Shown here one piece after another: positions 2,935 to 57,541 of a stretch of DNA of 64,000 bases. Within the stretch, counting starts at the first letter, position 1, and every line of letters starts with the position of its first letter. The notes under the pieces are model-generated. The model did not search any database. It was not told the origin of the DNA and saw only the letters and a list, made by a program, of their open reading frames with translations. The position numbers and the translations under genes are program-made. Source of the stretch: Adineta ricciae (Eukaryota > Rotifera > Eurotatoria > Adinetida > Adinetidae); assembly GCA_905250025.1 (NCBI GenBank), contig CAJNOJ010000309.1:51924-115923 (forward strand). Reading direction: 5' to 3'.

Positions 2935-3441
<507 letters not shown>

Positions 3442-4235: not shown

Positions 4236-4239
4236 TAAC

Positions 4240-5066: not shown

Positions 5067-5070
5067 AAAG

Positions 5071-10339: not shown

Positions 10340-10921
10340 CATATGAGTTTTCATCACTTCAACATTCTCTTTAATATATCTTTGATACATATATAATTTT
10401 TTGTTAAATGTCCATGTTGATCCCATTTTCGAATAAGCTCAGCATCTTTTTGTTGTTCGGGAGTAAGCCAAGGCCAAAATGATCAATTGATGCATTTCTC
10501 AGGCGTGTTTCTTGACGACTAAATAATTCGATTATTGATCGTGCAACAATATTAGTTGATGCTTCTGTTGACAAATTGAAACATTTGATTACTTTTTGAG
10601 TTGATTACTTAGCTATAAACGAGTTTCTTTCCCAATGATGAACCTGTTGTAGAGTTTTTACTAATTCATTGTTTATCATATGTAGTTTGTTGCTTTTTTT
10701 ATGTAATTCTTCACAGACAGCGTTTAGTTTCGTATGGAATAAAACAGACAATGGGAGCATAGTTTGTTCAACTTTTTAAATGAAATCAATTTGAATCGAG
10801 GATGTATGTGTATCGGTGATATCAGAAAGGTTCTTCTTAAATTCATTATATCTTCTTGCATTTTTTGTTTTCGTAAACCTAAAAGACAATAGAAATACAA
10901 ATACAAATCGAACAAAATCAC
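10340..10921 (-). pseudogene. Coiled-coil protein remnant, unrecognised
   Basis: The minus strand reads as coding-like pieces: LFHTKLNAVCEELHKKSNK, then NELVKTLQQVHHWERNSFIA, ARSIIELFSRQETRLRNAS and FWPWLTPEQQKDAELIRKWD. They are helical and charged with coding-like codon use. At least one stop and frame changes separate them, and I find no clean intron set or start. It may be a decayed gene or a gene with exons I failed to resolve. No function is assigned. Confidence 0.35.
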
Positions 10922-11358
10922 AAGAGAGAAAAGTAGATTTTTAGTTTATGATAATAAGATTAATAGTCAAAAGAGAACAGAGTAAGACAGCTCAGACATC
11001 CACACTGTTCACCCACGTCGACGTTCTATTCCAAGAATTTGTTTATTATAATTATTAAAATATCACCTGAATGCCGTCGTAAAGAATGAATATAAAAATA
11101 CGACAAAAGGACGTTTCCTATACGTGTTGTACTGTAACTTGATTTAATCGAAACATGATCTCCATTATGATATCGAATCTAAACTGAGCGAAAGTGGGTG
11201 AGAAATTATGTAGAAACCTTCACTATTTAAATCGAGTTAACGATTTCTACACTACTCCTTTTCTGTATCTGAAATGACTACCGTATTAGATCGTTTTCGT
11301 TCCAATGTGACACGAGAAAATGATTGAATAGAATGTCAAATTTATTGAATTCAACCAA

Positions 11359-12093
11359 ATGACGCGCGCACAAAGTTTATTTATTTATTTTCTTAATAAA
11401 GAAAAACAAATGTATTCATCTGCACCGGCCTATACGAAGCAAAATTTTCATATTTTTTATGGTAATATGTTGTTACCAGAAGCAGATTTTATTACTTTCC
11501 AAGACTTAGGTGAAGGATGGGGTATGATCTCACTCGAAATAACATAATTACTATTTACTGAAAAACAAAACATTCCTCTTTTCTTTCTTGCAGCAAAAGA
11601 CACGCATCGAGTCTTTTACATGGGCCATTTAGTTCCAAATGCTGATCCGTTCTTTATTAAGCTTATCGGCTCTGGCTATGCCAAAGATATGCATCGAGTC
11701 TTTTATATGGGTCATTTAGTTCCTCATGCTGATCCATTCTTTTTTAAGATTATTGATTTTGACTATGCAAAAGATAATCATCGTGTCTATCTACATGGAC
11801 AACTTTTACCGACTGCTAATGCCGTCAGTTTCACTCCTCTCGCTGATAGTGGCATGCCAATTGCTCCATCCAGTCCAATATATCCACCAGTTATGACACC
11901 TGCTTATGTTCATCCAACGATTTCACACTCAAATCATATGATACCATCATCAATGCATCCATCTAATCATTCAATAACACCAATACATCACCCATACCAT
12001 ATGACCACAACACCTACTCATCAACCAAATCAAACTGTTGTAGGAGGATATCTTAGAAGTAACGATTCAGTTCATAGTTGTATCTTAATATAA
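11359..12093 (+). CDS. DKNYY-like repeat protein
   Basis: Two exons, 11359-11521 and 11594-12093, about 220 aa; the phase-1 intron has GTATGA and CAG ends. Three consecutive units read YTKQNFHIFYGNMLLPEAD, AKDTHRVFYMGHLVPNADP and YAKDMHRVFYMGHLVPHADP, followed by a partial fourth (YAKDNHRVYLHGQLLPTAN). This is the pattern of the DKNYY family: a (D/K)xxxVFYxGxLxPxADPxxFxxL unit common in bacterial surface proteins. A His/Pro/Thr-rich tail follows (SNHMIPSSMHPSNHS, THQPNQ). No signal peptide or TM segment is visible. Function is unknown. The 3' half exists again at 30422-30802. Confidence 0.7.
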
Positions 12094-13302
12094 TTGTTTG
12101 TTTTTCTTCAACTCATGTTTCCCTTTTCTTTTCTTAATACTGACGATGAAGGATACATTTAAACAACACTATTTATATACAAAGACGAGAGTACTGATGC
12201 ATAGATTTTGCGATCTTTGACATATTCTGGATCGACTAGAGCAACTCTATTTAGATAAAAGTCAAGGAAGAGAAAGAAAAAAATTTTCGTTTGTTTTATA
12301 AGATCTCATTTTCCAATATAACATATGATCTATTCGTAGTGATATTCAATGAACATAATTGAAAAACTAAAATCTACACTCTCTCTTAAGTATTTTTCTG
12401 CTCCAGCTATAGCCAGCAACATATTTTTAACAAGTAATAGAATTTCGTTCAGAGTTATAGTACTCAATGAATGATTCAATTTTCTTAAAGTATTATATAT
12501 TTAGACTTCACCATGTGAAACGCTTTTCTTCATTTCAGTTTCATTCGTTTTCAAACAGGTATAGTCATTTGGTATGGAATTTGTTATTTGTTCTAATAGG
12601 CATTGGTATATCAATAAAATCGATTCAACCACTAAAATACCAGTTATTTTCATTTTTGATACGGATGATAATATTTAAAATGTTGAAAGATCTAGTTCAT
12701 TATTAATCATATATTAATTCGTATAAAAATAAAGAATTTATTTATTATACAATATCTGTTTTTCCAATTACATTTAGAGCAAATCATTTTCTTCATTCTG
12801 TTCGATTTTTTTCTTTTTGTTGTAGAATTCTCATTTCGCATATTGTTAATGTTATTCTTTTCATCATTATTGTTGGTTAAAAAATTTAATGGCTCGTCTG
12901 CATAATCGATGGTAGTTGTTATTTCGTATTGTAAACACGGCAGATTCATTTTGTAGAACAAAGCTAAACGAAAAAAATTGCAGAATGGCATATGAGATAT
13001 TTTTGCATACCCAAAGCCAACATGTCGGATTTGTTGAATTGCGATTCTCTTATATCTGAAATCAGTAGTACATCATCATCAAAATGATAGTTACCATTGT
13101 GAACGATTTCCGAAAAAGTTTTGTAGATATTTGCAAATGATTTCTAGAACAAACGATGAAAATACTACTAAAAACATTTCTAGTCATTGCACCTACTTCT
13201 ATGCTTTCTCTGCTTCTTGTCATTGTTCCATATTTCGGATGTTTTAATATTAAAGCCATATCATTTGTTTTGTATCGTTTCAACATAAGTTTCAAGACAT
13301 CG
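12094..13302. other. Gene-poor stretch left of the piggyBac relic
   Basis: Minus-strand pieces around 12720-13230 read as coding-like but stop-interrupted sequence, for example SEIVHNGNYHFDDDVLLISD and EYADEPLNFL-like segments. No family is recognised and no complete gene can be built. Confidence 0.4.
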
Positions 13303-14668
13303 TTAACCCTCAAACGCCCATCTGTAGGACTACCACTTATTACCCCACCTGGGTTCCGTACGGACCCCAAGATAATAAGATAGATACAATACACATTGTA
13401 TGTATAATTCTATGCTAGCCTTATGCGGTGTATGATTTGTGTGTTACAGGCTTAGTAGCTAATAAAAGAGAAACCGTATTTCGTCATTTTATCTTTTATT
13501 TCTAAAACATTCCTTTAAGATCTATTTTTATCCTACAAATGTTTCGCTACACGTCGTGCAAATGGCTTTATGATGATCTGGACAACATGGAACATTACAA
13601 CTTGAACAGTGAGTAGTAACTTTCCGATCGCGCTCTCTTGGACAAAGATGACAACGTTGCTTGACAGTAGCTTTTGAAGCGATAGTTGGATGTGAAGTAG
13701 CAACAATTAGTCCCATTGCTTATATAGCTAGTCGAACATTCTTTTGAAGTGCTTGTGGTTGATGTTGTCGTCGATCCAAATGGGATTAAACAAGATCATA
13801 GTCTAATTCGATGAGAGACAGACGTCCATGATGACTTTTCTTGCCATTTCATTGAGGGTTTTTGGTTGTACATACCACAAAAGCAGCAAGAGCACCAATA
13901 TCAAGTATGTTGAAAAAGAAAACCATTGGTCGTCGTTTTGTCTTTCGTTTGCAAGGATATGTTTGATCCATATGATCAACACCACTTTTTGTATTATTGT
14001 AATATAAGTAGCGCTCATCCTTCGGATTCGCCGACTCTTTTCTAAAAGAATTCTTCTGCTGCCGAACATGTTCAAACGGCTTGAAAAACACATAAGACAC
14101 TGCGATTGTTACTAGTCCTCAGCTGAATCATGAAACTGTGTCACGCATTAGAGTTAATAGAAAGCCAAGATTGTTCTTTTTTCATGAAACGAACCAATTA
14201 GGCATTTGTCAGTGAGTAGTTGTCCAGTGTTAACTGTGTTTCACAGCTAACAATTGCTTCTTTTCTATACTTTCAGGAAAATGATACCCTATCGAATATT
14301 TTCATTGAACGTTCGCGAAATTACTTTTAAAAATCTTTGATTTTTGATAAGGTTGCCCCGCACGTATACTCTACGGTGAATCTGGAATTCTAACGTCTAG
14401 TCGTTCGTCGGCCTCCCTCCGATCGGCCACTCACTGCTAGCCGTCGTCACGACTGCCTCCATTATCCCTGTTTGCGATGTATATTGGCTAAAATCCTGTC
14501 GAAAGACCTGACGTATCCTAACAAACAACGCAGTCATTATATTAAGCGCAAACTACTTCTGATAATTTCTTAAGCCTTTCCGGGAGGCTGTTCAAAGAAT
14601 ACCGTATCTCTCCCTCCCCTACGGCAAAAAATGTATCCATATGGGCACACCCAGCTAGAAAGGGTTAA
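13303..14668 (-). mobile_element. Deleted piggyBac-type transposon
   Basis: The element is bounded by TTAA at 13303-13306 followed by CCCTCAAACGCCC, and by AGAAAGGG followed by TTAA at 14665-14668. This is the TTAA target duplication plus terminal CCCT of piggyBac transposons. On the minus strand, 13803-14100 encodes the C-terminal end of a piggyBac DDE domain (NNTKSGVDHMDQTYPCKRKT, RRPMVFFFNILDIGALAAFVV). 13528-13716 encodes the Cys-rich zinc-binding tail (RCHLCPRERD, CSSCNVPCCPDH). The N-terminal two thirds of the transposase, with the first catalytic Asp residues, is absent, and the remains are frameshifted, so it is inactive. Confidence 0.8.
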
Positions 14669-15406
14669 ACTACTAATATCATAATGTAAGATATACCAGA
14701 TCTTTTTGTGTAAGCTGCATGAACTGCTGTCTTTGTACATATCACATCCGGGAATAGCGTTCAAACAACTACCTTCTATAACAGAATTTGTAAAACGCGC
14801 AGAAAAATATCTCTTTTGAAACAAGGAAGGAAATAGTCTAAGCTTGGTGAATAAGAAAAAACTAAGCTCAGATTTGAATTCTGTGGCATCGATCACCCTT
14901 CGGTCAACCCTTACCCTGCATATTAATAATCTATGTCTAGTTGACAGATCGTTAATTAACAGTTAATAATTAGTTAAAACTAACGTCAGATTCAAGTTCC
15001 CCAGCCTCGATTACCCTACCGGTAATCATTTTCTAACAACTATCGATCAATTTCATTGATTTTAAAAATACTGATTTCTGATTGGATAGGACAGACAGAC
15101 AAACTTTAAGCTTTTTAGCACAGCATTTAAACGCTGTATAACCCTTTTTTTCAGAAAAGGGAATTAAACCCATCAAATAATTCTTTTACATAATTGAATG
15201 AACGAAATAAACATTAGTTTGAATGAATGTTTTAAAGAAATTTATTTATTATCAAAAGTAAAACATCTATCTATTTTATTGAACGGAAAGAAAGCATCGT
15301 AATACAAATTATCTAATAAACTACACATATATATTTCTTTACTCATTAATAGTAAAAAGGGGAAAACAGTGATAACCGGGTTAAATTTACATATTTTTGA
15401 AATTGC
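14669..15406. other. Intergenic stretch with short diverged repeats
   Basis: Holds two imperfect copies of about 37 bp (near 14868 and 14987; shared core CAGATT...TCGAT(C/T)ACCCT(T/A)CGGT) and AT-rich spacer. No gene is seen. Confidence 0.4.
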
Positions 15407-18349
15407 TTAATCAGTTTTTCTTCGATAAAGATCATAAAAAGAATCGATTTTGTTCTCACAAGTACCATTATCAATAAAAGATAAAATACAATTATCTAAA
15501 TTGACAAGAGAAAATAACGTATAGATATTTAAAATACTAATATTGTATATTTGTTCATTAATAGAAATCATTTTTATATTGGAATCGAGATCATCTGTTT
15601 CCCAATGAAGAATCTTGAAGATAATTTGAAGAAGATCATCATCGATGAATTTGCTTAATTCACAATTCGAATTCAATTGAATAATTATATCCTTTTGCGG
15701 AAATTTATTCGGCATAAATTTCTTCCTAAAATTTTGTGTTTTCAAATTCCATAATTGTGCTGGTAAAGCAACAAGAGAATATTCATCATTATTAATAACA
15801 TGATAATTACATCGTTTAAAATCATTTAAAACTTTTTTTTTATTATTCAGATGTTTTGAAATATCCAATGTTGTTAAATTATGTCGATCGACTAAATTGA
15901 TAAAATGAATCGATTGTTGAGTGCCTAAAGGCCATTTAATAACTGGTTTCGTTAGAATTGAAAAACCATTCATATCTGAAAATAAGTTAAAAGTTTCAAT
16001 AATTGTTTTCATACTATGCCAATGTAGTTGAGCAAGAAAATGGTTGATTATAATATCAATATTTTTCTTGTACTGATTGAAATCTTTCTTCACTTGATCA
16101 ATAATATTTTGAAAAAGTATATCATACTCTTTGGAAAATGGTGGAAGTGGTGATAAACGAAGAGTAAGACCAATATGTGTACCCATTGTGTTAATTATAT
16201 TTGGTACAGATAAATAACCAATAACAGGAAATTCGTTTGATTTTGGTAGATTCTTTTCTATCTTTGAATGATGATGATGTTTTTCAAGAATTTCCATTAT
16301 ACCAGGACTATCAAATGTAACAGCAAACGAAAGAGTTTGTTGATTGAATAATGTTTCATTAGCAACAAGAAATTCTGCAATAGCTCCACCGAATGAATGA
16401 CCCGTATGCCATAAAATACCTGTGGAATTGATTCGTTGTCGAAATTTTTCAGTGAACTTTTGTGCTACTCGAAATTGTTCTAGAGCCGTGAGAGTATAAA
16501 GATAAAAATTAGTATGAAGTAAAACATTTTTAATATCAAAATTCGTTCCTCGATGTGCAATGACTATTTGTTTTGTTTCATTATGTTGAATTGCAATACC
16601 ATAATAACCAGTATCATCAGTATCATTATGTTCATCGATAAACGACCAATAAGGAAGTAAAGACAAACGATCCTTGCAATAAGCGACATGGCTTATTTTA
16701 GCAAATTCTAAATGAGTTGGCCATGAATTCAGAAATGATTGTGATTGTATATTATTAAATTTTCTATAATCTTGACCTTTTTGTGATTTATATTTATTAT
16801 AATTAACCTGAATTTTCTCTTGAAAATCAGTTAATTTTGACAATATCCATTGATTTTCGGCGTTTTCGGAGTTTGCTTGATACTTTTCAATAAATCTCTG
16901 TATGTATAAATCTGCGTCTGAGTGCATACCGAGCATATTGTATGTAAATATTCTATAAACTTGCGTTTTAATATTATTCGGATCATGTTCTAATGATTTA
17001 TCAAAGTCATTGAGAGCTTCCTTATATTTTTTATGATAATAGAAAAGAAAGCCACGTAAAGGGTAAAATATTCCAAATGTGTTGTTAAATCGCTTTCCAT
17101 GAATCTTTTCAAAACGATTGCAAATACAATTTTTGACAGATATCGCTTCTACCCAACGACAAACTTTCATTATTGAGTGGAATGACTGATATTCGGATTC
17201 GTAACTATTCATGATTTGTGACAAATCTTCTATTGCATTAGGACACTGACCACATTTCGACATATCCAGTTCAATTCCTTGAATTAAACCAATTTTCTCC
17301 TGATCTTTTAATGTTAAACCATTCTTTAACAAAATCCATCCATTCGGGTCAATTGAAGAGATATCTTCACAGTGTATCATAATATACCCTATCATACCCG
17401 ACGTAATTATAGTGAATATAAACCATAAACAGAATGGACAACATTTTATAATTAAATCTTGAAGTTTGATAAATAATGTAAAACGCCAACGTTCGATAAA
17501 TAATTTAAAAGACCAATGTTTGATAGATAGCAAAACCCTTTTGATAAGTTGTACATAAAGCTTGGTAGCTAATTTTTGAAGTTCGATACGTAATAAATCA
17601 AATTTGATATATTTTACTAAAAGCTCGATAGGTAATAAATAAATTTTCTTATATGTTACTAAACGTCCGATAAATAATTCAACAGGTTTGATTTTTTGTC
17701 CATGAGATTGGATAAGTGATACAGCATATTTGATCAATAATGCATCAGGTCCCATTATACACATGGCTAATATAGAATACACAATAGAAATAACAAGAAC
17801 TAACCCCATTTTCACTGATACAAAAGCTATATCTTGAACGATATCTTCCCAAACAAATGTGGTAGAATACCAAAGCCAACCACACCAAAGACAAGTAACA
17901 GGTATTAAAAGAGATAAATAAGTCAACATATTCCAATTAGACTTAAAGTTTTCGTCTGAAAATTTTAATAACCAAATTGGTACGACAATAGAATATGATG
18001 AAAACAGTATGGTACTAGTTATACTCCGTAGAGGTATGAAGCTAGGTGATATGAAGCATGCGATTGAAAAGATTACTATTGCTAGAAATATTGTCTTTCG
18101 TAGTAATGTAAAAACAGATTTTGCTGATCTTGGCACTGGTGTAAAATATAAAAGAAAACCAAATAATTGCCTGTATTTTGAAGGAGAAATGTTGCTGACG
18201 ACCAGGATATATCCAATATTGAGAAGAATAATGAATTGTAATAAAGAACGATTTCTAGGTGAGATCGGCGGCGTTTGATTACGATAGTGGCCATATGCAC
18301 AAAAACTGAAGATTATTGAAAGCAAAAGAACTATACATACAACAATCAT
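15407..18349 (-). CDS. Membrane-TPR-lipase_3 fusion protein (980 aa)
   Basis: A single uninterrupted exon starting at ATG 18349. Roughly residues 1-340 hold about eight to ten hydrophobic segments, for example YILVVSNIS, LFLVISIVYSILAMCIMG and CLWFIFTIITSGMIGYIM. Residues about 430-465 carry a TPR-like unit (YYHKKYKEALNDFDKSLEHDP). The C-terminal half is a class-3 lipase fold: IVIAHRGTNF (oxyanion-loop region), then GHSFGGAIAEF with the nucleophile Ser at about residue 652. VTFDSPGI and later VDRHN may supply the acid and His. This suggests a membrane-tethered serine hydrolase acting on acyl lipids; substrate unknown. The lack of introns in a window where most genes have many suggests retroposition or transfer, but that is inference. 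Confidence 0.75.
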   Translation of the reverse strand: MIVVCIVLLLSIIFSFCAYGHYRNQTPPISPRNRSLLQFIILLNIGYILVVSNISPSKYRQLFGFLLYFTPVPRSAKSVFTLLRKTIFLAIVIFSIACFISPSFIPLRSITSTILFSSYSIVVPIWLLKFSDENFKSNWNMLTYLSLLIPVTCLWCGWLWYSTTFVWEDIVQDIAFVSVKMGLVLVISIVYSILAMCIMGPDALLIKYAVSLIQSHGQKIKPVELFIGRLVTYKKIYLLPIELLVKYIKFDLLRIELQKLATKLYVQLIKRVLLSIKHWSFKLFIERWRFTLFIKLQDLIIKCCPFCLWFIFTIITSGMIGYIMIHCEDISSIDPNGWILLKNGLTLKDQEKIGLIQGIELDMSKCGQCPNAIEDLSQIMNSYESEYQSFHSIMKVCRWVEAISVKNCICNRFEKIHGKRFNNTFGIFYPLRGFLFYYHKKYKEALNDFDKSLEHDPNNIKTQVYRIFTYNMLGMHSDADLYIQRFIEKYQANSENAENQWILSKLTDFQEKIQVNYNKYKSQKGQDYRKFNNIQSQSFLNSWPTHLEFAKISHVAYCKDRLSLLPYWSFIDEHNDTDDTGYYGIAIQHNETKQIVIAHRGTNFDIKNVLLHTNFYLYTLTALEQFRVAQKFTEKFRQRINSTGILWHTGHSFGGAIAEFLVANETLFNQQTLSFAVTFDSPGIMEILEKHHHHSKIEKNLPKSNEFPVIGYLSVPNIINTMGTHIGLTLRLSPLPPFSKEYDILFQNIIDQVKKDFNQYKKNIDIIINHFLAQLHWHSMKTIIETFNLFSDMNGFSILTKPVIKWPLGTQQSIHFINLVDRHNLTTLDISKHLNNKKKVLNDFKRCNYHVINNDEYSLVALPAQLWNLKTQNFRKKFMPNKFPQKDIIIQLNSNCELSKFIDDDLLQIIFKILHWETDDLDSNIKMISINEQIYNISILNIYTLFSLVNLDNCILSFIDNGTCENKIDSFYDLYRRKTD

Positions 18350-20340
18350 TGATCTTCGAAATCAATTAATGATAATATTTGATAAATTACGACTTATTCA
18401 ACTTTAAAGGAATCAGTTTTTCAAATTTCTTTTTTTACATCTAAATGTAAAGTATAAAGTTCACTTTCAAAACTTCTAAAAACGCTCACGGATTATTACT
18501 GACAAAAAACCCTGTCTGAAGATCGATTCTAAGTAAATATTGCCACTGCGTTGTTATTTCCACCGAAGAATTTTTTCTCGTAAGTTCTTAAAGATTCCAA
18601 AGTCTTTTCTTTTATTTTTACTGACGATCCATTGATATTAAAAGCATGCTTTTTACCTGTTTTTTTTTAAATAGAATTTTAAAGTTTTTCTTTTTGTTTT
18701 GTTTCTTATCTAAAATCTAAAAGAACACCGAGGTATAATATCAATTATTGCCAAGATAGTTTTCAGTATTTAATTGTTATTTCGGAAGCGAGACAGGACT
18801 GATATAATCCTATGAACAAGGTCAATCAACTCTTAGATAAATCTGAGGAAAAAGCAGCAGAATCTTGTAAAAGTTCACAGGAATTGAAGAACTTTTTCCG
18901 AACCTTCGCTGAACAGATTGATTGTTTTTTATCTACATCTTACAGGTAGCAGATATGTAAAGATAAAAAAGACCCATCAACGCCATTTTTCTATAGCTAT
19001 AACACCTGAAATTGAGAATGAGCGATACTAAGAAAAATTAAATCTTTCAATCTGAATTTCATACTTGAAATTCGCAGAACAGCTTCAATCCGATTTCTAT
19101 TTTAAGTAACAAAGTTTTGAAATCGTTGATATATTTTGCGATAAATTTTAAAATTAGTTATCTTAAATTAATTGAATTGTTCAAAAATATACATCTAGAA
19201 AAAAAAACAATGCTTATTAAATGATATTAACTAAACGTGTACAATACATAGGAAGGAGGAATTGTCAATTTCGATATGATTCTCTCTATTCCTCAATAGA
19301 ACATATTCGTCTTCTATTGTGTTTTTGAAAAACAGTCGTGTTCTGCCTCGGGATCTAATAATATTATTTCATAAATGTTATATTTTAACATAATATTTAA
19401 TTAGTTAATAAATATTTTGTCTGCTTTGTGAAGACCGAGTTGAATAAAGTCATCCTTGACACGATCTGCATCATGTGTTTTCGTTTTATTATCAATTGAA
19501 ATCATCTCCAATGACGAAATCACTTTGTTTTTTATTGAACTAAACACTACTTTAGTCAGAATCTTCATACGTATGAGCATTGTCAATATTCACTGGTGAT
19601 AAGTGAGAATTTGTGATCAGATGATTGTATGTAACAGATAATCCCATTTCTTCAATATTAAAAAACTGTATCGGATGACTATCTAAAACGAAATATAAGG
19701 ATCAGAGTAAGACAGAGAGAGTACAATTTCTATGTGATATGAGCATCGTTTCTATTCTTATCTTTTACATATACATGTATAAAAAATACTTAGCAGTAAT
19801 AAAGAAAAACTCGATTGTACATATTAGATGCCAAAAATATATTGATAAGTATATATCACCATAAAAGTTGAAAAGAAAAGGCAGATACGTGGCATGAAAG
19901 CATTCCGATGGTAAGAAGAACTGAAGAACACTTTATAATTTCACATTAGAAAAAATATTTATGAAAATTTGAAAATCAAAAGGCGTCTTCTAGTGTGTTC
20001 AAAGGTTTAAGTAACAGAGAAGAAATAACTAAAAGCCAGAATTACCATCCACAATAAAATATTTCCATGTCAAATAGTACAATATTGAAACGGATATTTC
20101 CGCAAGATTTCTGAAATTTCTTAGAAACGATTTTTCGCGAAGTAAATGTAAGACTCTCTCAGAACCTCTAGCTAATTACCGTCTAAAAGCACAATACCAT
20201 ATCGTCTAGACACTGAATAGTATTCGGTCCAAATCATCGTGTAGGGTCTATTGTTATGGACACACTCAAGGGTGAACGCAACATGCAAAAGTAACGAGAA
20301 CAGCCAGAATAAGTAAAACAGGAATACCAGTGTTCACAAT
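18350..20340. other. Two-kilobase intergenic stretch
   Basis: AT-rich with many stop codons in all frames. The short minus frame 19401-19586 has no motif. I see no RNA gene or transposon ends here. Confidence 0.5.
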
Positions 20341-23300
20341 CTATACAACTTTACCATCAAAATACATGCCAATACCAGTGCCCAAAATGAGAGCAATCGG
20401 TATAAGAGCATTCTCAGTAATAGCAACAGCATAATTGAAAGAAGTATGAGCTGTTACAGCAAGTATATCAAGTACAGCACGAAACATATAATCGCTTTTA
20501 GGAAGTTTATAAAATACAGCATGAAGCATGTGACCGCTTTCAGCAAACGGACTAAGTATAGCACGAAGCATGCCAACCCTTTCAGCACGCTCATAACGTT
20601 CAGCACGAAGTAAGTGATGGTTATCAGCAAGTTTACAAAGTACAGCACGAAGCATGTAATAGCTTTCAGAATGCTGATCAAGTTTAGCACGAGATATGTG
20701 ATCGTTCTCAGCAAGCTTACGAAGTACAGCACGAAGCATGTGATCGCTTTCAGCAAGCTTATAAAGTTCAGCACGAAGCATTTGATCCTTTTTAACAAGC
20801 GTACCAAGTTCAGCACGAAGCATGTCATCGTTTTTAGCAAGCGTATCAAGTTCAGTACGAAGCATGTAATAGCTTTCAGGATGCTGATCAAGTTTAGCAC
20901 GAAGTATGTGATCGTTATCAGCAAGTTTATCAAGTACATCACGAAGCATGTAATAGCTTTCAGGATGCTGATCAAGTACAGCACGAAGCATGTGATCGGT
21001 TTCAGCAAGCATATAAAGTTCAGCACGAAGCATGTGATCGTTTTTAGCAAGCTTATAAAGTTCAGCACGAAACATGTGATCGTTTTTAGCAAGCTTATCA
21101 AGTTCAGCACGACGCCTGTGACCGTTATCAGCAAGCTTATCAAGTACAGCAAGAAGCATATAATAGCTTTCAGGATGCTGATCAAGTTTAGCACGAAGTA
21201 TGTGATCGCTTTTAGCAAGCTTATAAAGTTCAGCACGAAGCATTTGATCCTTTTTAACAAGCGTACCAAGTTCAGCACGAAGCATGTCATCGTTTTTAGC
21301 AAGCGTATCAAGTTCAGTACGAAGCATGTAATAGCTTTCAGGATGCTGATCAAGTTTAGCACGAAGTATGTGATCGTTATCAGCAAGTTTATCAAGTACA
21401 TCACGAAGCATGTAATAGCTTTCAGGATGCTGATCAAGTACAGCACGAAGCATGTGATCGCTTTCAGCAAGCATATAAAGTTCAGCACGAAGCATGTGAT
21501 CGTTTTTAGCAAGCGCATCAAGTTCAGCACGAAACATGTGATCGCTTTTAGCAAGCTTATCAAGTTCAGTACGAAGCATGTAATAGCTTTCAGGATGCTG
21601 ATCAAGTACAGCACGAAGTATGTCATCATTATCAGCAAGTTTATCAACTACAGCACGAAGCATGTCATAGCTTTCAGGATGCTGATCACGTTTAGCACGA
21701 AGTATGTCATCGTTATCAGCAAGCTTATCAACTACAGCACGAAGCATGTCATAGCTTTCAGGATGCTGATCAAGTACAACATGAAGCATGTAATCGCTTT
21801 CGGCAAGCTTATCAAGTTCCGCACGAAGCATGCGACCGCTTTCAGTACGCTCATAACGTTCAGCAAGCGTATCAAGTTCAGCACGAAGCATGTGATCGTT
21901 TTCAGCAAGTATATCAAGTTCAGCACGAAGCATGTGATCGTTTTCAGGAAGCGCATCAAGTTCAGCACGAAGCATGTCATCGTTTTTAGCAAGGGTATCA
22001 AGTTCAGCACGAAGCATGTCATCGTTTTTAGCAAGCGTATCAAGTACAGCACGAAGGATGTAATCGCTTTCAGCAAGCTTAGCAAGTTCAGCATACTCAT
22101 AACGTCCAGCACGCTTATCAGGTTCAGCACGAAGCATACGATCGCTTTTAGCGCGCTTATAACGTTCAGCACGAAACATACGATCGCTTTCAGCAAGTTT
22201 ACCAAGTACAGCACGAAGCATGCGATCGCTTTTAGCAAGCTGATCAAGTACAGCACGCTTATAAAGTTCAGCACGCAGCATGTAATCGTTTTTAGCAAGT
22301 TTATCAAGTACAGCACGAAGCATGTGATTGTTTTGAGCAAGCTTATAAAGTACAACACGAAGCACGTGATCGTTTTTAGCCAGCTGAGCAAGTACATCAC
22401 GAAGCATGTGATCGTTTTCAGGAAGCTTAGCAAGTTCAGCGCGCAGCATGTAATCGTTTTTAACAAGTTTATCAAGTACAGAACGAAGCATGTAATCGTT
22501 TTCAGCAAGGTTATAAAGTACAGCACGAAGCATGTAATCGTTTTTAGGAAGCTCATCAAGTACAGCACGAAGCGTGTAATCGTTTTTAGGAAGTTCATCA
22601 AGTACAGCACGAAGCATGTAATCGCTTTCAGCAGGAAGAATGTGATGGCCCGCAGCATGATGAGTGATAGATATTTGTTCGGTTTGATGAAGTTCACCTA
22701 GTTCATCATTATCATTGGAACTGAGTTCAGTACATTCCACAGAACGACGGTTGGTCTCTTTAGTCGGTTCGGCAAATAGAGTAGAACTACGGCTAGTGGT
22801 TTCAGTATGCCCCGGGTGATTATAGTAACGACCATGCATAAAGCCAGCAACTTCCTGGTATAGAGAAAAAACATGGGTAAAAGTGGCACGTATGGCTTTG
22901 ACAATATCAGCAGGACTATTGAAGATGACACCAATACCCATAAGAAGTACAGCACTGGCAGCAACTCCAGCAGCAGTACTATCAAGAAGATTAAAATCAA
23001 TAACAGCGCAAATAAGACGAAGAACAACGAAGGGAAAAGAATAATGGCCATCATCATCATTAATGAAATGTCCCCAAAGAACCACAAAAACAGCCACAAG
23101 AACAGCCGGAGCTGAGTCTCCTAACCAACCAGTGGTTACGTGAAGAGAAACACTGAACCAGCCAGCGAGACCACCAACAACGTGGCTCTGAGAGGTAACA
23201 TGTGGACGAGCAAAACAGCCGGCAACAACACCCATAAGAAATAAAAATGCAGTAACGGGAGCACCAAGAAACCTATAACTCTTAGGAATAACATAGAGAA

Positions 23301-23682
23301 TAGCAGCTGGTATAAATAAAAGAGCAACCCAACGAAGTAAAATAGCGCCATAATCACCGTGGGAATGAGTATTTTCCGGCTGTCCAATTTTCTTTTCCTT
23401 CGAAGTTTTGTGAATAGAATCTGTTGGGGTAGTCCAGATCTTGGACTCTGGTCCGATGTCGGCTGTATGCTTGTGAATATTTTGACGATAATTGTGCTCA
23501 TTGTCATCTTTGTTATCCGCCTTATTCATATCGTGATGGCTGAATATTGATTGTCTTCGTCGGAGATGGTTAAAAAGTGCTACGATGAAGAAAAAGAAAT
23601 TTTTTGTGGAGAGTATGATCATAAAATATAAATAAGTTTGTTCCTCATTTTGAGTTACATAGCCGACACACAAAAGCATCAT
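20341..23682 (-). CDS. Multipass membrane protein with about fifty 14-residue repeats (1113 aa)
   Basis: A single exon from ATG 23682. Residues about 1-340 are non-repetitive, with several TM segments (WVALLFIPAAILYVIP, APVTAFLFLMGVVAGCFA, VLVAVFVVLWGHFI, AASAVLLMGIGVIF). Residues about 350-1060 are roughly fifty tandem copies of a 14-residue unit close to DHMLRAELDKLAEN, with variants such as DQHPESYYMLR. The last 40 residues are hydrophobic again (ALIPIALILGTGIGMYF). Fourteen residues are two heptads and the Leu spacing is 4-3, so a very long helix or coiled coil is likely. The repeat frame is fixed by the non-repetitive ends. I do not recognise the family. Intronless, and less AT-rich than its surroundings. 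Confidence 0.65.
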   Translation of the reverse strand: MMLLCVGYVTQNEEQTYLYFMIILSTKNFFFFIVALFNHLRRRQSIFSHHDMNKADNKDDNEHNYRQNIHKHTADIGPESKIWTTPTDSIHKTSKEKKIGQPENTHSHGDYGAILLRWVALLFIPAAILYVIPKSYRFLGAPVTAFLFLMGVVAGCFARPHVTSQSHVVGGLAGWFSVSLHVTTGWLGDSAPAVLVAVFVVLWGHFINDDDGHYSFPFVVLRLICAVIDFNLLDSTAAGVAASAVLLMGIGVIFNSPADIVKAIRATFTHVFSLYQEVAGFMHGRYYNHPGHTETTSRSSTLFAEPTKETNRRSVECTELSSNDNDELGELHQTEQISITHHAAGHHILPAESDYMLRAVLDELPKNDYTLRAVLDELPKNDYMLRAVLYNLAENDYMLRSVLDKLVKNDYMLRAELAKLPENDHMLRDVLAQLAKNDHVLRVVLYKLAQNNHMLRAVLDKLAKNDYMLRAELYKRAVLDQLAKSDRMLRAVLGKLAESDRMFRAERYKRAKSDRMLRAEPDKRAGRYEYAELAKLAESDYILRAVLDTLAKNDDMLRAELDTLAKNDDMLRAELDALPENDHMLRAELDILAENDHMLRAELDTLAERYERTESGRMLRAELDKLAESDYMLHVVLDQHPESYDMLRAVVDKLADNDDILRAKRDQHPESYDMLRAVVDKLADNDDILRAVLDQHPESYYMLRTELDKLAKSDHMFRAELDALAKNDHMLRAELYMLAESDHMLRAVLDQHPESYYMLRDVLDKLADNDHILRAKLDQHPESYYMLRTELDTLAKNDDMLRAELGTLVKKDQMLRAELYKLAKSDHILRAKLDQHPESYYMLLAVLDKLADNGHRRRAELDKLAKNDHMFRAELYKLAKNDHMLRAELYMLAETDHMLRAVLDQHPESYYMLRDVLDKLADNDHILRAKLDQHPESYYMLRTELDTLAKNDDMLRAELGTLVKKDQMLRAELYKLAESDHMLRAVLRKLAENDHISRAKLDQHSESYYMLRAVLCKLADNHHLLRAERYERAERVGMLRAILSPFAESGHMLHAVFYKLPKSDYMFRAVLDILAVTAHTSFNYAVAITENALIPIALILGTGIGMYFDGKVV
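20460..22690 (-). repeat. 42 bp tandem array coding the 14-aa repeats
   Basis: About 50 diverged 42 bp units on the minus strand. A higher-order block is visible: 20750-21050 and 21212-21512 match closely at an offset of 462 bp (eleven units), showing recent segmental duplication inside the array. A few units carry in-phase length changes. Confidence 0.85.
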
Positions 23683-24499
23683 GATTTCTCTTTCGAATGA
23701 GTTGAAAAATCCGAATAATCATGAAATGTCAGTGGTTTTCATTTTTCTACCTTTCATTTCTGCTAAAATAACGATAGGAATTTTAAAAGAAAGATTGAAA
23801 ATGACTGCTCTATCCATAGGAATCACTAGTCTTTGTTGTTACAGAATGATAGGAGTGAGATTTCATAATAAAACGTATCATTAAAATATTATTAAACTGC
23901 TCTTTGTGGAAAATGGCAAAATTGGTGAAATTCTATAACATTGAGTCTTTTGAACTGTCTTATTCGAAGGGATTATTCTATAGTAAAATCGATAACATAA
24001 GGTGAAAGGTCGAGAAAAGTTGAACAACTCTTGTAACGAACGTTCATCTTTGAATAGTTTTGTTTTCTATAAAAATACTAAAATACGAGTTATAACTCCA
24101 TAAGGACTTTATATAACTGAATGAAATTTTTGGTGGTATGAGAGCTCATTGAGGCTCATATCAGGGATATACCATTCGCACTCATAAGCATTCGTATAAG
24201 CATCAGCGTTTTCATTTAAGATATTCCGAAATATGAAACTGATTCAATGTTTTATTAATTGCATTCCTCTCTTCACGTTCTTGCAAGGGCGAAAGCAAAC
24301 TATATTTCACTAATATACAGTTCATTAAACGTTTTAATAAATATTTTCTTACCGCTCACCCTAAAAACAGAGACAGTTATTTAGGATTATCATTATGAAC
24401 ATAAGTATTATTTTGAAAATAGATCAGTATGAATAGACTAAACTGATTATTGGTTCAGTATACAACATCGTTGGTATTTTCTCAAGTTTTGAGCAGTCA
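23683..24499. other. Intergenic stretch
   Basis: AT-rich upstream region of the repeat-protein gene. No motif or gene is recognised. Confidence 0.5.
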
Positions 24500-24771
24500 T
24501 CCTATTCCGCAATGTTGAACATTTGGGAACCAGTTCCGTATCCGGAGTCAATTCCTACTAATTCCGAAATTCCATCTATCACATACATAGGCGATCCCGG
24601 GTCTGACCTAATTCCGCGGAATTCCGGAATTGGTGGGAATTCCTAGGAATTGCGTCACCGAATGCCGGAATCGTCTGTGTTTATGGTCGTGAAAGATGGA
24701 ATTCCAAAGTCGGTAGGAATCGATTCCAGATGCGGAACTGGTTCTCAAATGTTCAACATTGCGGAATAGGA
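24500..24771. mobile_element. Hairpin-like MITE
   Basis: 272 bp with long imperfect terminal inverted repeats. The left end TCCTATTCCGCAATGTTGAA matches the reverse complement of the right end, and the similarity continues for roughly 80 bp per arm (GAACCAGTTCCG, AATTCCATC). It is rich in GGAATTCC words and has no coding capacity. A clear target-site duplication is not seen. Confidence 0.7.
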
Positions 24772-25194
24772 CGTATTCTCCAAGTTCTTGGGAAGTAGAC
24801 AGAATTTGTTAATTGTTAATATTTTCTTTTGTAACTTACGAGAAGATGAACTGTCGTGAAATTGATAGATTATTGATTGATTTGTGTTGAGATCTTCTCT
24901 ATACTATCAGAGATAAATAAGTACATACAATAAATGATAAAATGCGTCGAAGAATATTATATTGTGTTTTTGTTGACGGTTCTTAATGAATGGTATCTGG
25001 AGAAAACCTATCGCCTTATATACGCTATATTTCTCTTCTCTGCTGTTTCGTCTGACATTAATAGTCAACACTATGAAATAACGTATAACTATTTCTATGT
25101 TATCCTTCCATTCCAATCCTGCTCGTTCTTTCACACACATATGTATACGATTTAGACATTTATGTCGTCTGTATTTTTCTTTCTTTTTTTCATG
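24772..25194. other. Intergenic stretch
   Basis: AT-rich spacer between two transposons. The short open frames on both strands (24907-25155) have no motif. Confidence 0.4.
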
Positions 25195-25315
25195 GTTGTT
25201 TCCAGTGGCGCAACCAGGATTTTTAGACCAATAGGCAAGTTTTGCTTACATCGAAAAAAGATGATGGGCAAAATGGGCAAAATTTTTATTGATGGGCTAA
25301 TCAAATACTTATGCC

Positions 25316-25545
25316 TGTGATATAGTGATAGTGATGTCATGGGACATCTCCCTCCTATAGATGCCATGACACTCTTGTTCTTGTTGGAAATATCCTTACG
25401 GAATATTCCATGTCGTCATAGGCTGTTGGAATACTCGCAGGGTATTTCCCCCTTTCTGTTATATATATAGTCATGATGTTTTCTTAGTGTAGTTCAGTTT
25501 TATGTTTATTTCTAAATAAACTCTCTCTCACTTCAAGACATGACA
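25316..25545. mobile_element. Solo LTR nested in the hAT element
   Basis: 230 bp that begins TG and ends CA, flanked by the perfect 5 bp duplication ATGCC (25311-25315 and 25546-25550). It contains a TATATATA-like box and AATAAA near its end, as an LTR should. No internal retrotransposon sequence follows, so it is best read as the product of LTR-LTR recombination. Orientation is probably plus from the AATAAA position. Confidence 0.75.
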
Positions 25546-26292
25546 ATGCCATACAAAAAAAAAATCGAAAACGTAAAATGATGTTTCTTTTTCAAGAGGG
25601 ATGCATCAAACTTAGATCATAAGCGCTAATCATACACATCGTAATCGATTTTTATTAGTGGCGCATCTACGACCTCACATTACCAAGCCACCGAGTTTTT
25701 GGAAACCTCCCTACAGGGATACGGGATTCTTTTCTCCCCTGTTTCGATTAAGTCTTTTAGGAAACCTGTAAGAAAAATAAAAACGTTGTTGGAAAAATTC
25801 TGAAAATTTTAGAGATTTTTAGTTTTTTATTAAGCATTGCCAGGTGGCCCATTAAAATTTGATTACGCTGCTAATTTTGATATATCTATCTGATGAAATT
25901 TATATTTTAGATTTAAAAGTCCGTAATATTCTAGTGAAAACACGACGAAAAATCGGACTATAACTCATAACTTATCTATTTTTAACTGAAAACCAATTCA
26001 AATGAGACAATTTTAAGCAGATTTTAATCAAGTTTCATGATTCTCAATTAAATTTAGTCAATTATTAGTCGAAAAAATTGGTTTTTATATATTTTGAGCT
26101 ATTTCTTTTTGTTTCGTGGAAACTGTACGTAGAATTCATGCAGCAGAAATAGGTCTCTCAATATCTTACCGAAGGACAGATAAAATTTTTTTTTTAAATT
26201 CTCGATGGGCAATAGCTAAATTATGAAAATTTCAATGGGCAAAGCTCAAAATCTCAGTGGGCAATTGCCCATTTGCCCCCCCCCCCCCCCCC

Positions 26293-26385
26293 NNNNNNNN
26301 NNNNNNNNNNNNNNNNNNNNNNNNNNNNNNNNNNNNNNNNNNNNNNNNNNNNNNNNNNNNNNNNNNNNNNNNNNNNNNNNNNNNN
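26293..26385. other. Assembly gap (93 N)
   Basis: Follows a run of C from 26276 to 26292. The homopolymer is the likely reason for the gap. Confidence 0.95.
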
Positions 26386-26479
26386 TAAAAATTTTCCTCA
26401 TTTTGCCCATACTCTTTTTTCGATGTAAGCAAAACTTGCCTATTGGTCTAAAAATCCTGGTTGCGCCACTGGTTGTTTC

Positions 26480-27169
26480 CGACATATACATATCGATGAA
26501 TTGCATTGATATCGTGGCGCGTTGGATGAAAAATATGAAAAACATAAAATCGTTAGAGATGAAGTATTTTTGGCTACCAATTTCTTTACTAAAAAATCAA
26601 GGTTTGTTGGAAAATCAGTGTTTTTCTTAGCCTTTGTGACAAATTAGAGAAATTAAAAATAACATGTTCAAGAAATTCTTCACCAAAAAGTAATAAATAA
26701 GACTTTATATATTGTTATTATATGTCAATCGAAAGCTTGCGATAAGAAGAATACAATGAACATACGTGAAATATGTGTGAAGAATATGACATAATAGCTC
26801 CATAATTACATTTCCTTCCAGTCATGAAGCATTTCACAGTGGAAAAACAGTTGATTAAAATCAAATAATTTTTTTTTTTATATATCTATTACTTTAATCC
26901 ATCGTGACATTTTTTTGAGTAAAATATAATTTTTTCGAGCGGGATACATGTTAACGAGCTGAATTGTTTTACTGCAGAAATCTCACACAATCAATTAAAA
27001 AAGAGAAAATAATCTCCTCTGTAAGTCGTCTAATTCCTACAACAATGAGAAAAACAAAATCGAAAATCTGTCGCGATATTAATCAAACAATAGCTACTTT
27101 TAACGAGTATTCTTAAGTTTTTTATTTTTTTCAAAGTATTTAAAGAAGAATATTCTTATGAAAATTATG
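26480..27169. other. Intergenic stretch
   Basis: Very AT-rich. I see nothing supportable. Confidence 0.5.
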
Positions 27170-28066
27170 TAAGATATCTTGGACACGGACTCGACCTTTT
27201 CTTCAACGGATTCGCAGACGAGCGTATTCCAACTCTGATCACATTCGTTCCAAGTAGAACTGGGTAATAATAAAAGGCCGAAGCAGACCGAAGCTGTATA
27301 ATTGGCCGAAGATGAATGATATAGCCAGTCGACCAATCAGCGCTTCTTCGGACGCTTCGACGTTCGGCCCAGCTTCGGCCTTTTATTATTACCCAGTAGA
27401 ACTCGGTGAGCGCTATCTATTCCAAAAAAATATTCCCGGAAATATCCTTCCTTACGTATTACAAATGCAAAATATCGTTAAAAAAAACCTAAAACACCAT
27501 GAAGATTTTTAAAAAAGCAAGCACGTATTCGTTTCTTCAGTTCTAACTACCATTCTAACACTTGCTCCAGATACAACGCAATGAGATCTATCGATTCCAA
27601 TCATAAAAAGAATTTCACCCACACTCACCCTCACACACTCCAAACTCATCCAAATCATACTATAAACACAGTAAGACCTGTGCAAATTCACAAAGGATCA
27701 TCATTAATGCGGCTTCGTATATGAAAGCTGGAGTTCATGGAAATTGGGTAAGGGTGAGTGGAAATTTTTTTATGATTGAATTCGATAAAGCTCATCGAGT
27801 TGTATCTGGAGCAAGTGTTAGAATGGTAGTTAGAACTGAAGAAACGAATACGTGCTTGCTTTTTTAAAAATCTTCATGGTGTTTTAGGTTTTTCTAACGA
27901 TATTTAGCATTTGTTATGCGTAAGGAAGGATATTTCCGGGAATATTCTTTTTGGAATAGATAGAGCTCACCGGGTTCTACTTGGAACAAATGTGATCAGA
28001 GTTGGAATACGCTCGTCTGCGAATCCGTTGAAGAAAAGGTTAAATCCGTGTCCAAGGTATCGTACA
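27170..28066. repeat. Imperfect palindrome of an unknown gene fragment
   Basis: 27170-27640 and 27750-28066 are inverted copies around a spacer of about 110 bp. Without the MITE in the left arm the arms are about 320-330 bp and highly similar. The right arm on plus reads FDKAHRVVSGASVRMVVRTE and then NRAHRVLLGTNV-like sequence, and the left arm encodes the same on minus (GIDRSHCVVSGASVRMVVRT). The fragments look like two units of one repeated fold, but the frames are broken and I do not recognise it. Confidence 0.75.
27262..27394. mobile_element. 133 bp MITE with 9 bp target duplication
   Basis: Ends GGGTAATAATAAAAGGCCGA and its inverted complement, flanked by AGTAGAACT at 27253-27261 and 27395-27403. 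The opposite palindrome arm (about 27970-27990) has the uninterrupted target sequence, so the insertion is seen against its own empty site. A 9 bp duplication suggests a Mutator-like source; 8 bp (hAT) cannot be excluded. Confidence 0.85.
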
Positions 28067-29550
28067 TTGCAAATTTACAGAATAATTTAAAGAAATTTCG
28101 CTTCATGCAATCAACACTACCTAATTCGATTCATAACTTTCATTTTTACAAATATTGCTGAATGTTGATAATTTTGATCTTCTGGATTCCACAAATGAGA
28201 ATGTCATGGAATTCGAAATTTTAAAAAAGAAAAAGATAAATTACGAAAATATGTTTAGTACAAGTTTATACGTATGTAAAGCTTTTCTTCCTTCCAAAAC
28301 AATTGACGATAGATATAAGTGCGTTTATATTTCCATCTATATCTTCTCCCGTTCTCTTTCCAAAGATCGTATTGTGACGATTTCTGATGCAAGACATATA
28401 TGCGCTGATGGTACTACGCCTATATTTATTTCTTCCTCGTAAATCGCATCGTTCTGATACAAAACACTCGTTTATACACTAGTTCATAAAGAAGAGAACG
28501 CAAGCAAATATATAAATATCATATCAAAGTACACGAGAATGTATCGAAGAAAGGACATAATAAGTATAATCCATTAGATGAGAAAAATCGTATCATTCGC
28601 ACAGCGTGTGTCAGAGAGATTGTCACACGTATGTGTGCCAACAATGGCACTACACCATGAATTTCACAAGGATCTCATTCGTCTTTTGATCTGTTTCAGC
28701 TTATCCTTAATCTATTCTTGTCTTTATGTTCTTTGTCTTCGGTTCGTTTTTATGTTTTTTTATCCTTCTTCATATGGTCTTTCTTTCGAAGTACGCCCTT
28801 TAGTATTATATATATGGATACAGGAAGGAAATGTCCATGAGAAAAACCATGAGTGTGGGTGTGGGCGCTGCTGTCAGTGTCCCTTCTTCACTGATCCACA
28901 GTAACACTCTTACCCTCACGCGTTGTGCAAATCCGGTTTGAAAAGCGAGTTTCGTACTTTGCACGAATGAGGATAAACGATTTGAAGGATATTAGAGCTA
29001 CTCTCCTTCGTGAGGATTATGTTCATTCTCCTTAACACGCACGCGCACAGCTAGTTATATAGAAGTAGAAAGGGAGAGAGGGAGAACAAAGAGTAAAGTG
29101 ACTGGACGCTAACATGCGTCCCTCTCCTAACAAAACGTGCGTCCGCACACAATTTACAGAAAATTCAAGAGCTACAAAAAATGAAAATAAAAATTCCGAA
29201 CAGAGACGAAATATTCATGCTGGTTCATTGGCTTAGGTAGTTGACACTGTTGATTTGGTTTGTTTTCCAGTTGTTTTCTTTTCGATATTCGGTGGTTCGG
29301 CTTTGCTTGTTTTTTTGGTTTTTTTTACCATCTTTTGTAATATCGTTTTTCCGAGAAATAATTCACCCACACCCTTTTCCTTCTTGCTTCTTCTAGTAAT
29401 GTTAGTGATTTGAAGTTGATTGTCACATCTTTTTTTATCTTCAGTGATTTTAATTTGATGTGAATGATAAATTCCATCATTTGTGCCCTAATCTTTTATT
29501 CGGTCAGCGACAGTTCAAATTCAATAGTTACTAGAAACTGGGAACTTGAA
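28067..29550. other. Gene-poor stretch
   Basis: Mostly low-complexity AT-rich DNA with some GT/CA-rich parts near 28850-29120. The frames at 28155-28442 and 28578-28904 show no motif and no splice logic. No gene is supported. Confidence 0.45.
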
Positions 29551-29554
29551 ATGT

Positions 29555-29665
29555 ACATCAGTTCTAGCTCAGAAGAACTGTAACTCTTCAGCAGTTCTAG
29601 TTCAAAAGAACTGTAACTCCTCAACAGTTCAGGTTTAAAAGAACTGTGATGCTGAGTAAGTTCCT
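29555..29665. repeat. 33 bp short tandem repeat
   Basis: About three units of an AGTTCTAGxTCAxAAGAACT sequence followed by GTAACTC. Each unit is internally palindromic (AGTTCT...AGAACT). Confidence 0.65.
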
Positions 29666-29816
29666 ACTCAAAGAACTGAAAATGAACTTGTAGCTTGAAA
29701 ACTCTGCTATTGTAATGTTTATGTTCTTTGTTCGTTCGTTGAGGCGGTCGATATTGAAGTGATATGTAAGATGCAGTAAGCATCTTCTAGATCGTCGAGT
29801 TAAATGTTGTTCGATG

Positions 29817-30040
29817 CCCAGGCCAATCAATCCCGTACTCGGATCCTTTCCGATCCCATGTCGGATCTCATCGGATCCAAAACATGAATTTTCCCGATTT
29901 TCTAAGGGTTATCATAGAATATATCTAGAAAGATCGCTCATAAAATTTGCAACAACCGACGGGATTTTCCTAGTCGGATTCCATTGCAATTCCGTTTTCA
30001 GGAATCCGATCAGATCCAGCATCGGATTTGTTGACCTGGG
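29817..30040 (-). mobile_element. CCCAGGTC-ended MITE, shorter copy
   Basis: 224 bp with ends GCCCAGGCC... and ...GACCTGGG, rich in GGATCC/GGATTC words. It is the inverted and internally deleted relative of the element at 51278-51560: the two share CAACAAATCCGATGCTGGAT at one end and the segment with CCGACGGGATTTT. Confidence 0.75.
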
Positions 30041-30421
30041 ATCATTTTTATCAATAAATGCTGGTGATTTAAGTTGATTTAAACGTTCTTTGAATAAATT
30101 AAACGCTTCCATTTTCAGGTATACATGTACATACAGCAAGCAACAATAAATCTTGTATTTTTCTTGAAAAGAGAACAAACAAAATAACGACATAAAGAAA
30201 GAAAAGCAGATAATAAGTTCATGCTAACGTAATGAGCAGTCGACAGATGGCAAAGTTGTACAGAAGAATAATTAACACTGTTTACCTATATATACTACTA
30301 CCATCTCGCTAACAAATTCTTTCGAAAACCATCAAATATATCTTACAGACCATCCGAAATAAAGAAGATACTTAAACATTATGTCAGTTATGGTGAAACA
30401 GAACGTCTTTTTTTTCCTATA

Positions 30422-30802
30422 GTAAAAGCTATGCATCGAGTTTTTTATATGGGTCATTTAGTTCCTCATGCTGATCCATTCTTTTTTAAGATTATTGATT
30501 TTGACTATGCAAAAGATAATCATTGTGTCTATCTACATGGACAATTTTTACCGACTGCTAATGCCGTCAGTTTCGCTCCATCCAGTCGAATATATCCACC
30601 AGTTATGACACCTGCTTATGTTCATCCAACGATTTCACCCTCAAATCATATGATACCACCAATGCATCCATCTAATCATTCAATAACACCAATACATCAC
30701 CCATACCATATGACGACAACACCAACTCATCAACCAAATCAAAGTGTTGTAGGAGGATATCTTAGAAGTAACGATTCAGTTCATAGTTGTATCTTAATAT
30801 AA
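30422..30802 (+). pseudogene. Truncated copy of the DKNYY-repeat gene
   Basis: Near-identical to 11690-12093 of the gene at 11359, including the 3' untranslated part up to about 30898. It lacks the first exon and the first one and a half repeat units. It also has small in-frame deletions in the tail (VSFAPSSRIYPP replaces a longer stretch). A TATAG splice-acceptor-like site precedes it, but no matching upstream exon is found and the nearby ATG at 30380 runs into a stop. Probably a duplicated fragment. It could encode a 123 aa protein from the internal ATG at 30431. Confidence 0.7.
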
Positions 30803-30970
30803 TTGTTTGTTTTTCTTCAACTCATGTTTCCCTTTTCTTTTCTTAATACTGACGATGAAGGATACATTTAAACAACACTATTTATATACAAAGACGAGAA
30901 AAAAAAACAATAATTAAGAATTAAAGATCACGTCAATGTATTTAATAAACATGAGAGTTCAATTGATGGT

Positions 30971-55923: not shown

Positions 55924-55955
<32 letters not shown>

Positions 55956-57394: not shown

Positions 57395-57509
57395 GTTTCT
57401 AACCATGTCTAAGTTATGCAATTCATCGCTTTTCTTCTCTCTTCTATCGTTCAATATATATGATGATAAGGAAAGTGTCTCACTTGTCCCACTACGGTGG
57501 GACATATAA

Positions 57510-57541
<32 letters not shown>

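Follow-up and report, generated by a model that had tools for sequence, protein, structure and literature searches.

A candidate gene for a membrane protein with a 50-unit two-heptad repeat array in a presence/absence block of the rotifer Adineta ricciae

We analyzed a stretch of 64,000 nucleotides from Adineta ricciae (GenBank assembly GCA_905250025.1, contig CAJNOJ010000309.1, here C309, positions 51,924 to 115,923; hereafter the window), which ends at the end of its contig. An earlier note, made from the letters of the window and their open reading frames (ORFs), had described an intronless frame of 1113 amino acids at 20341-23682, with a multipass N-terminus, about fifty 14-residue repeats over some 700 residues and a hydrophobic C-terminal anchor. 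The frame lies at exactly these positions on the minus strand (23682-20341; 1113 aa within a stop-to-stop stretch of 1125 codons), and the repeats form an array of 50 units across residues 354-1077. The parts of the locus, all in the same orientation, are as follows.

20341-23529, minus strand: probable coding sequence from M52 to the TAG stop, 1062 aa, from the open frame and its T-ending codon bias
23530-23682, minus strand: in-frame upstream stretch, residues 1-51, probably non-coding, with the codon bias absent
22624-23529, minus strand: N-terminal domain, residues 52-353, with a hydrophilic tail, five to six predicted membrane helices, a further helix and a linker, from hydropathy and a low-confidence AlphaFold model
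20452-22623, minus strand: the array, residues 354-1077, with 50 units that each measure about 14 residues (42 bp)
20344-20451, minus strand: C-terminal tail with a predicted membrane helix, residues 1078-1113, from a hydropathy peak and T at fourfold sites
20266-20340, minus strand: 24 hydrophobic in-frame codons past the TAG, then TGA, from third-position T and hydropathy

T at third codon positions and at fourfold-degenerate sites (fourfold T) served as our marker of coding. The N-terminus, the array and the C-terminus lie in one frame and have the same T-ending codon bias: fourfold T is 62% (95/153) in residues 52-353, 86% (297/346) in the array and 14/19 in residues 1078-1113; for the C-terminus, set beside the other two parts, a value of 70% was also obtained. 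The 86% of the array is not independent evidence, because its units descend from one ancestor. Residues 1-51 carry T at 4/16 fourfold sites, compared with the 95/153 of residues 52-353 (P=0.006), and are probably non-coding. Since the bias typical of the gene is missing from them, M52 (23529) is the probable start of the protein, and directly before it an acceptor-like CAATATTCAG was spotted by eye. The description as intronless holds for the coding part but not necessarily for the whole gene, in which an intron in the 5' untranslated region is possible. Beyond the TAG, 24 in-frame codons form a hydrophobic stretch (hydropathy 2.58) with T at 11/15 fourfold sites and at 16/24 third positions (P=0.003 against the flank's 0.37), which suggests that the coding signal extends in frame for 24 codons past the stop. 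The TAG may be a recent stop or may be read through, or the continuation may be due to chance.

The open frame exceeds what chance would produce: in 2000 mononucleotide shuffles of codons 1-353 the longest open run was 204 codons. Within the array, the claimed frame contains no stops and the other five frames contain 3, 155, 1, 73 and 28; two of these five are nearly open, as expected from a 42-bp period, which is divisible by three, and the opposite strand holds a 695-aa frame. When the same differences were placed at random in the array, a mean of 5.9 stops arose, against none observed (P=0.0014). The 50 units differ from their consensus at 285 places with no out-of-frame length change, and all three length changes in the array are multiples of three (3/3) and keep the frame. 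Maintenance of the open frame is moderately supported.

Successive units are 14 residues apart in 46 of 49 cases, and the remaining three spacings are 20, 26 and 20. The unit consensus is GATCACATGCTTCGTGCTGAACTTGATAAGCTTGCTGAAAAC, which translates to DHMLRAELDKLAEN. Leu dominates unit positions 4, 8 and 11 (44/50, 43/50 and 36/50, respectively), Asp stands at position 1 in 35/50 units, N or S at position 14 in 42/50, and Pro at position 12 in 13/50. The units had been thought to alternate with QHPES-type variants, but no strict alternation was seen: QHPES occurs eight times in the array and QHSES once. Five units at residues 742-798 are identical in DNA sequence to those at 896-952 and represent a recent internal duplication, 11 units apart; bar this duplication, mean unit identity is flat with distance (0.775-0.816 for units 1 to 19 apart).

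The earlier note had proposed comparing replacement and silent change (dN/dS) between units. The proportions of nonsynonymous (pN) and synonymous (pS) differences are 0.239 and 0.110, with a pN/pS of 2.4 (1.35-5.41 in a bootstrap over the 14 codon columns, 2.18-3.28 on leaving one out, and 2.2 among the 44 distinct units), all statistics on units that are not independent of each other. With a ratio of this kind, the data do not demonstrate purifying selection on the repeats. Third positions are the least variable among units, and only 1% of column permutations left them with so little variation. Of the changes from the consensus that are possible, the distinct variants include 57 of 98 replacements, 10 of 25 silent changes and none of 3 stops; replacement and silent variants do not differ significantly (Fisher P=0.12). 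Silent sites may be kept from changing by the T-ending bias of the whole gene, and diversifying selection on the units is possible.

Hydropathy peaks above 1.3 were found at residues 114-132, 138-156, 189-207, about 215-233 and 236-254, and at 1086-1104 near the C-terminus; an additional peak at 18-36 falls within the probably non-coding part. The five peaks after M52 and the C-terminal peak bear out, as predictions, the multipass N-terminus and the hydrophobic C-terminal anchor of the earlier description. An AlphaFold model of the N-terminal domain, made with no alignment, has six helices, the sixth at 165-186, plus one at about 257-287 (predicted local distance difference test, pLDDT, 50.8; predicted template modelling score, pTM, 0.28). 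From these predictions we infer a membrane protein with five to six N-terminal helices and a C-terminal hydrophobic anchor. Residues 616-867 were modelled as nearly all helix (pLDDT 54.5, pTM 0.21), with breaks at 640, 668, 696, 752, 778-780 and 836, each one or a few residues ahead of a QHPES proline, of which this region has six. Over residues 616-1063 hydrophobic power is 30.4 at a period of 3.5 residues and 0.73 at 3.6; it is 39.6 at 4.667, another divisor of 14. The array has the heptad (3.5-residue) hydrophobic period expected of a coiled-coil protein. Of the helical rod of about 100 nm proposed before, the heptad period and the near-unbroken helix of the model stand, and the prolines and breaks argue against straightness; the model of the units is of low confidence, and a kinked rod is, with low confidence, the leading picture.

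Searches for relatives gave the following results. For the N-terminal domain, Pfam had no match at E≤1 (residues 52-352), NCBIfam had two matches far below the cut-off (E 0.03 and 0.22), the best PDB match had E 0.36, and PHROGs, viral contigs, plasmids and prokaryote genomes contained no relative. The whole protein had no sequence match among PDB chains at E≤0.01, no relative in phages and prokaryote genomes, and Pfam matches in the array only; for the array, no match was confirmed among viral contigs and PADLOC gave one weak match (E 0.0006). By these searches, the protein is an orphan within the profile, structure, viral, phage, plasmid and prokaryote collections, a set without eukaryotic protein databases. 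The suggested search with the N-terminal domain hence found no relative in the microbial collections (prokaryote, plasmid and viral), and the libraries searched agree with the claim that no family has this layout, eukaryotic proteomes being outside those libraries. Literature searches for 14-residue repeats and for repeat proteins of rotifers yielded no papers.

The array exceeds the cut-offs of unrelated families (HHH_9, START_2 and NCBIfam MTB_hemophore). Its family scores are partly repeat artefacts, because control arrays (residues 616-867 in one reversed form and in two forms with permuted positions) also reach Pfam cut-offs in three cases, at 24.7-26.6 bits, and after this control the family matches of the array were taken as such artefacts. 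LRV_2 at 45 bits and HHH_9 at 40 bits lie above the controls and are not wholly explained in this way. For LRV_2 (PF25591), the whole-sequence score was 40 bits in one scan and 45 in another, with the cut-off at 27; no single stretch passed 0.01 in one scan and two passed E 1 in another, with the controls inflated too. The macoilin family (PF09726) scored 12.4 and 16 bits, in the array only, below its cut-off of 32.

The codon usage of the gene was compared with that of its host. Fourfold T is 32-53% over eight actin-family matches (some with intron bases inside), 42-46% over three copies of RPL3 and 27-51% over five other frames of the window. Codon usage in the N-terminal part is distinct both from that of RPL3 plus actin (P=0.001) and from that of a pool of nine host stretches (P=9e-8). 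At fourfold sites RPL3 has 42-46% T and 26-27% A, whereas the N-terminal part has 62% T and 12% A. A conventional-type actin exon comes nearer to the gene, at 52-53% fourfold T. This atypical usage suggests a foreign or otherwise atypical origin. The idea that the codon bias is a sign of high expression was weakened.

The genome assembly comprises 130.5 Mb in 1033 contigs. Our searches of it score the best candidates, which makes repeat counts lower bounds and means that a distant copy could be missed. Queries with the N-terminal, array and C-terminal parts led to one place in the genome (next best E 0.46 and E 7.6). RPL3 was found at four places, each in three pieces, plus two weak fragments elsewhere; among three copies compared, two are 97.7% alike and the third is 85% alike to one of them. 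For the window region, one partner contig is close and two are distant. In these respects the host resembles a bdelloid-type degenerate tetraploid with close homologs and distant ohnologs, a state described for bdelloids in PMC5916493. A 23-mer query for the bdelloid spliced leader occurred at 0 places in the genome.

A homologous contig, C63, is collinear with the window at 1-12256 and 30004-39199 (pieces 85-100% identical; the comparison reached window position 39199). Between these flanks lie 17.7 kb in the window and about 1 kb in C63, and the features concerned are as follows.

12257-30003, no strand: block without counterpart on C63, holding the array gene, the 980-aa gene and transposon remnants
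15407-18349, minus strand: co-oriented neighbour of 980 aa with a hydrophobic N-terminus, TPR and class-3-lipase-like parts, unrelated to the array protein by BLASTP

The inner 1 kb or so of C63 has two short matches to the window, 26 and 37 bp long (E 0.003 and 0.009), both near 18600-18660, which we take as chance. The simpler explanation is an insertion on the C309 copy, with deletion on C63 as the alternative. Elsewhere, C63 carries about 5.2 kb extra near window position 2929 (2928-2930) and lacks 8558-9536. Contigs C55 and C107, which are probably ohnologs, are 67-73% identical to parts of the window as far as 9336 and have no match to the array gene. Stretches that are 92% identical flank the block at 11683-12190 and 30425-30899, so that it lies between duplicated sequence; a DKNYY family match covers 11620-12093.

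The 980-aa neighbour has a match to NCBIfam Rlip_lipase at E 2e-10, though at 40 bits it stays far below the cut-off of 440. An 878-codon paralog on contig C185 is 44% identical to it over residues 261-955, with no array gene alongside within the 19.8 kb examined. The neighbour was considered as a relative of the array protein because of one similar 15-residue stretch and was rejected (best E 2.5). Sequence at 14006-15168 has many copies in the genome (best 40 of 627 candidates scored). An element at 25202-26472 has 87-bp inverted ends, 95% complementary, that enclose an assembly gap and a G run, and part of its interior, near 25328-25547, recurs on six or more other contigs. A foldback with 102-bp arms, 80% complementary, lies at 24488-24783, and a possible remnant of a piggyBac-type transposase at 13849-14118 (minus strand; DDE_Tnp_1_7, E 0.044, below the cut-off). 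At 28854-28865 (plus strand) there is an exact TGTGGGTGTGGG, a two-unit TGTGGG (0.06 expected); PMC7943196 gives this unit as the telomeric repeat used for bdelloids. The ORF around these units (28578-28904, plus strand) matches FeoC below the cut-off (E 0.0006). A search of 12000-30500 against Rfam, hammerhead included, gave no match at E≤1, and no reverse transcriptase was recognised by eye among the 33 ORFs of at least 75 aa in the block, 10 of which were run against Pfam. Outside the block, two U6 small nuclear RNA genes with equal scores lie 1.6 kb apart (55900-56005 and 57486-57591, plus strand), and a tandem pair of 222-bp units with 99% matches lies at 6599-7043.

The reading that we prefer, tentatively and at a little under even confidence, is a real gene for an integral membrane protein with a long two-heptad helical rod and a C-terminal hydrophobic anchor, in a transposon-rich block missing from the homolog. 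Several points weigh against it. The in-frame TAG truncates codon-biased sequence, and the stop test yields P=0.10 when each distinct variant is taken once. Replacement differences exceed silent ones among units and so do not demonstrate constraint on the repeats. The prolines speak against a straight rod, and both AlphaFold models are of low confidence. The gene is absent from one homolog, so two copies are not needed, and the evidence is the genomic DNA of one species and one allele.

A gene acquired horizontally from a donor with T-ending codons and retained by the host, its array perhaps expanded after arrival, is an unlikely alternative. In its favour, the codon usage is unlike that of ordinary host genes and of RPL3 and actin, the gene is absent from the homolog with no second copy found, and bdelloids are reported in PMC5916493 to have a large proportion of foreign genes. 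However, the viral, phage, plasmid and prokaryote collections, outside which eukaryotic donors lie, contain no donor relative, and expression or strand effects alone can produce codon bias. We consider it unlikely, too, that the frame belonged to a mobile element as an accessory ORF and was left behind in an internal block. Bdelloid retroelements are described in PMC5408684 and PMC6431247 as carrying structural ORFs whose products have coiled-coil and membrane domains, and the absence of the block from the homolog, its richness in dispersed repeats, the two-unit telomeric repeat and the co-oriented neighbour ORF would all fit such an element. On the other side stand the single copy found, the lack of a recognised reverse transcriptase and of Rfam matches under the searches described above, the collinear flanks on both sides, and a neighbour that is of class-3-lipase rather than GDSL type and whose paralog stands on another contig without an array gene.

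The frame could also be decaying or never functional, a 42-bp satellite adjoining unrelated membrane-coding sequence and open by virtue of its period. Units of 42 bp do keep frames open unaided, as the 695-aa frame on the opposite strand illustrates, and the pN/pS of 2.4 with least variable third positions and the TAG ahead of codon-biased sequence would be at home in a satellite; yet the whole array is stop-free in the claimed frame only, both flanks continue that frame with the same codon bias, and 285 differences from the consensus include no out-of-frame length change; we hold this reading to be rather improbable. An alpha-solenoid binding array, with each unit a short helix and turn, an N/S helix cap and exposed residues under diversifying selection, seems very unlikely. 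It would account for N/S at position 14 and Pro at position 12, for the pN/pS and its bootstrap range, and for the whole-sequence LRV_2 score above the cut-off, but AlphaFold gives long helices and no hairpins (at low confidence), unrelated families and control arrays also reach cut-offs, and LRV_2 has no single stretch passing 0.01.

If the locus is the membrane protein gene that we favour, the N-terminal helices would be seated in a membrane and the rod would be a long amphipathic helix, with Leu at unit positions 4, 8 and 11 and Asp at 1, kinked at the prolines. In the most likely mechanism, rods would associate via the Leu stripe, and the C-terminal hydrophobic segment would return to the same membrane or reach another. 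Attached to membrane by either end, the rods might then fix or set its spacing, whether they scaffold a single membrane or connect two; a tether function is plausible. The array would grow by unequal exchange of 42-bp units, with rod length changing and the frame intact. A bolder version, in which a length-adjustable, double-anchored rod on one of two homologs has exposed residues that change faster than silent sites in a recognition- or conflict-like manner, is in our view quite improbable. If expressed, the protein would be a very regular natural rod of two-heptad units, at most about 109 nm long (724 residues x 0.15 nm), predicted to be membrane-held at both ends and produced by plain growth of a DNA repeat; the locus would also show how a presence/absence block in a bdelloid genome can bring in a new membrane protein of large size. 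Without expression, the locus would instead warn that long open frames arise from satellites whose period is divisible by three.

Among known systems, the ORFs of bdelloid Terminons and long terminal repeat (LTR) elements, as PMC5408684 and PMC6431247 describe them, resemble the locus in their bdelloid-type genome, transposon-rich block and co-oriented neighbour ORF. They were compared by description rather than by sequence, and share with the array protein a coiled-coil period and membrane segments, here by prediction. The locus differs from Terminon/Athena elements in having no hammerhead (Rfam, E≤1), no reverse transcriptase recognised by eye among the 33 ORFs of at least 75 aa, one copy and a 50-unit array. 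The likeness to LRV_2 lies in a whole-sequence score above the curated cut-off; this score is, however, a sum of weak repeated stretches. Macoilin has a multipass N-terminus followed by a coiled coil, the same order as here, with a weak Pfam score below the cut-off; it is not known to have 14-residue repeats or a C-terminal anchor. Golgins and other long coiled-coil tethers have irregular heptads and are not known to have a multipass N-terminus. A long predicted coiled coil and membrane attachment are common to them and to the array protein, which is set apart by its near-identical units and its predicted multipass N-terminus.

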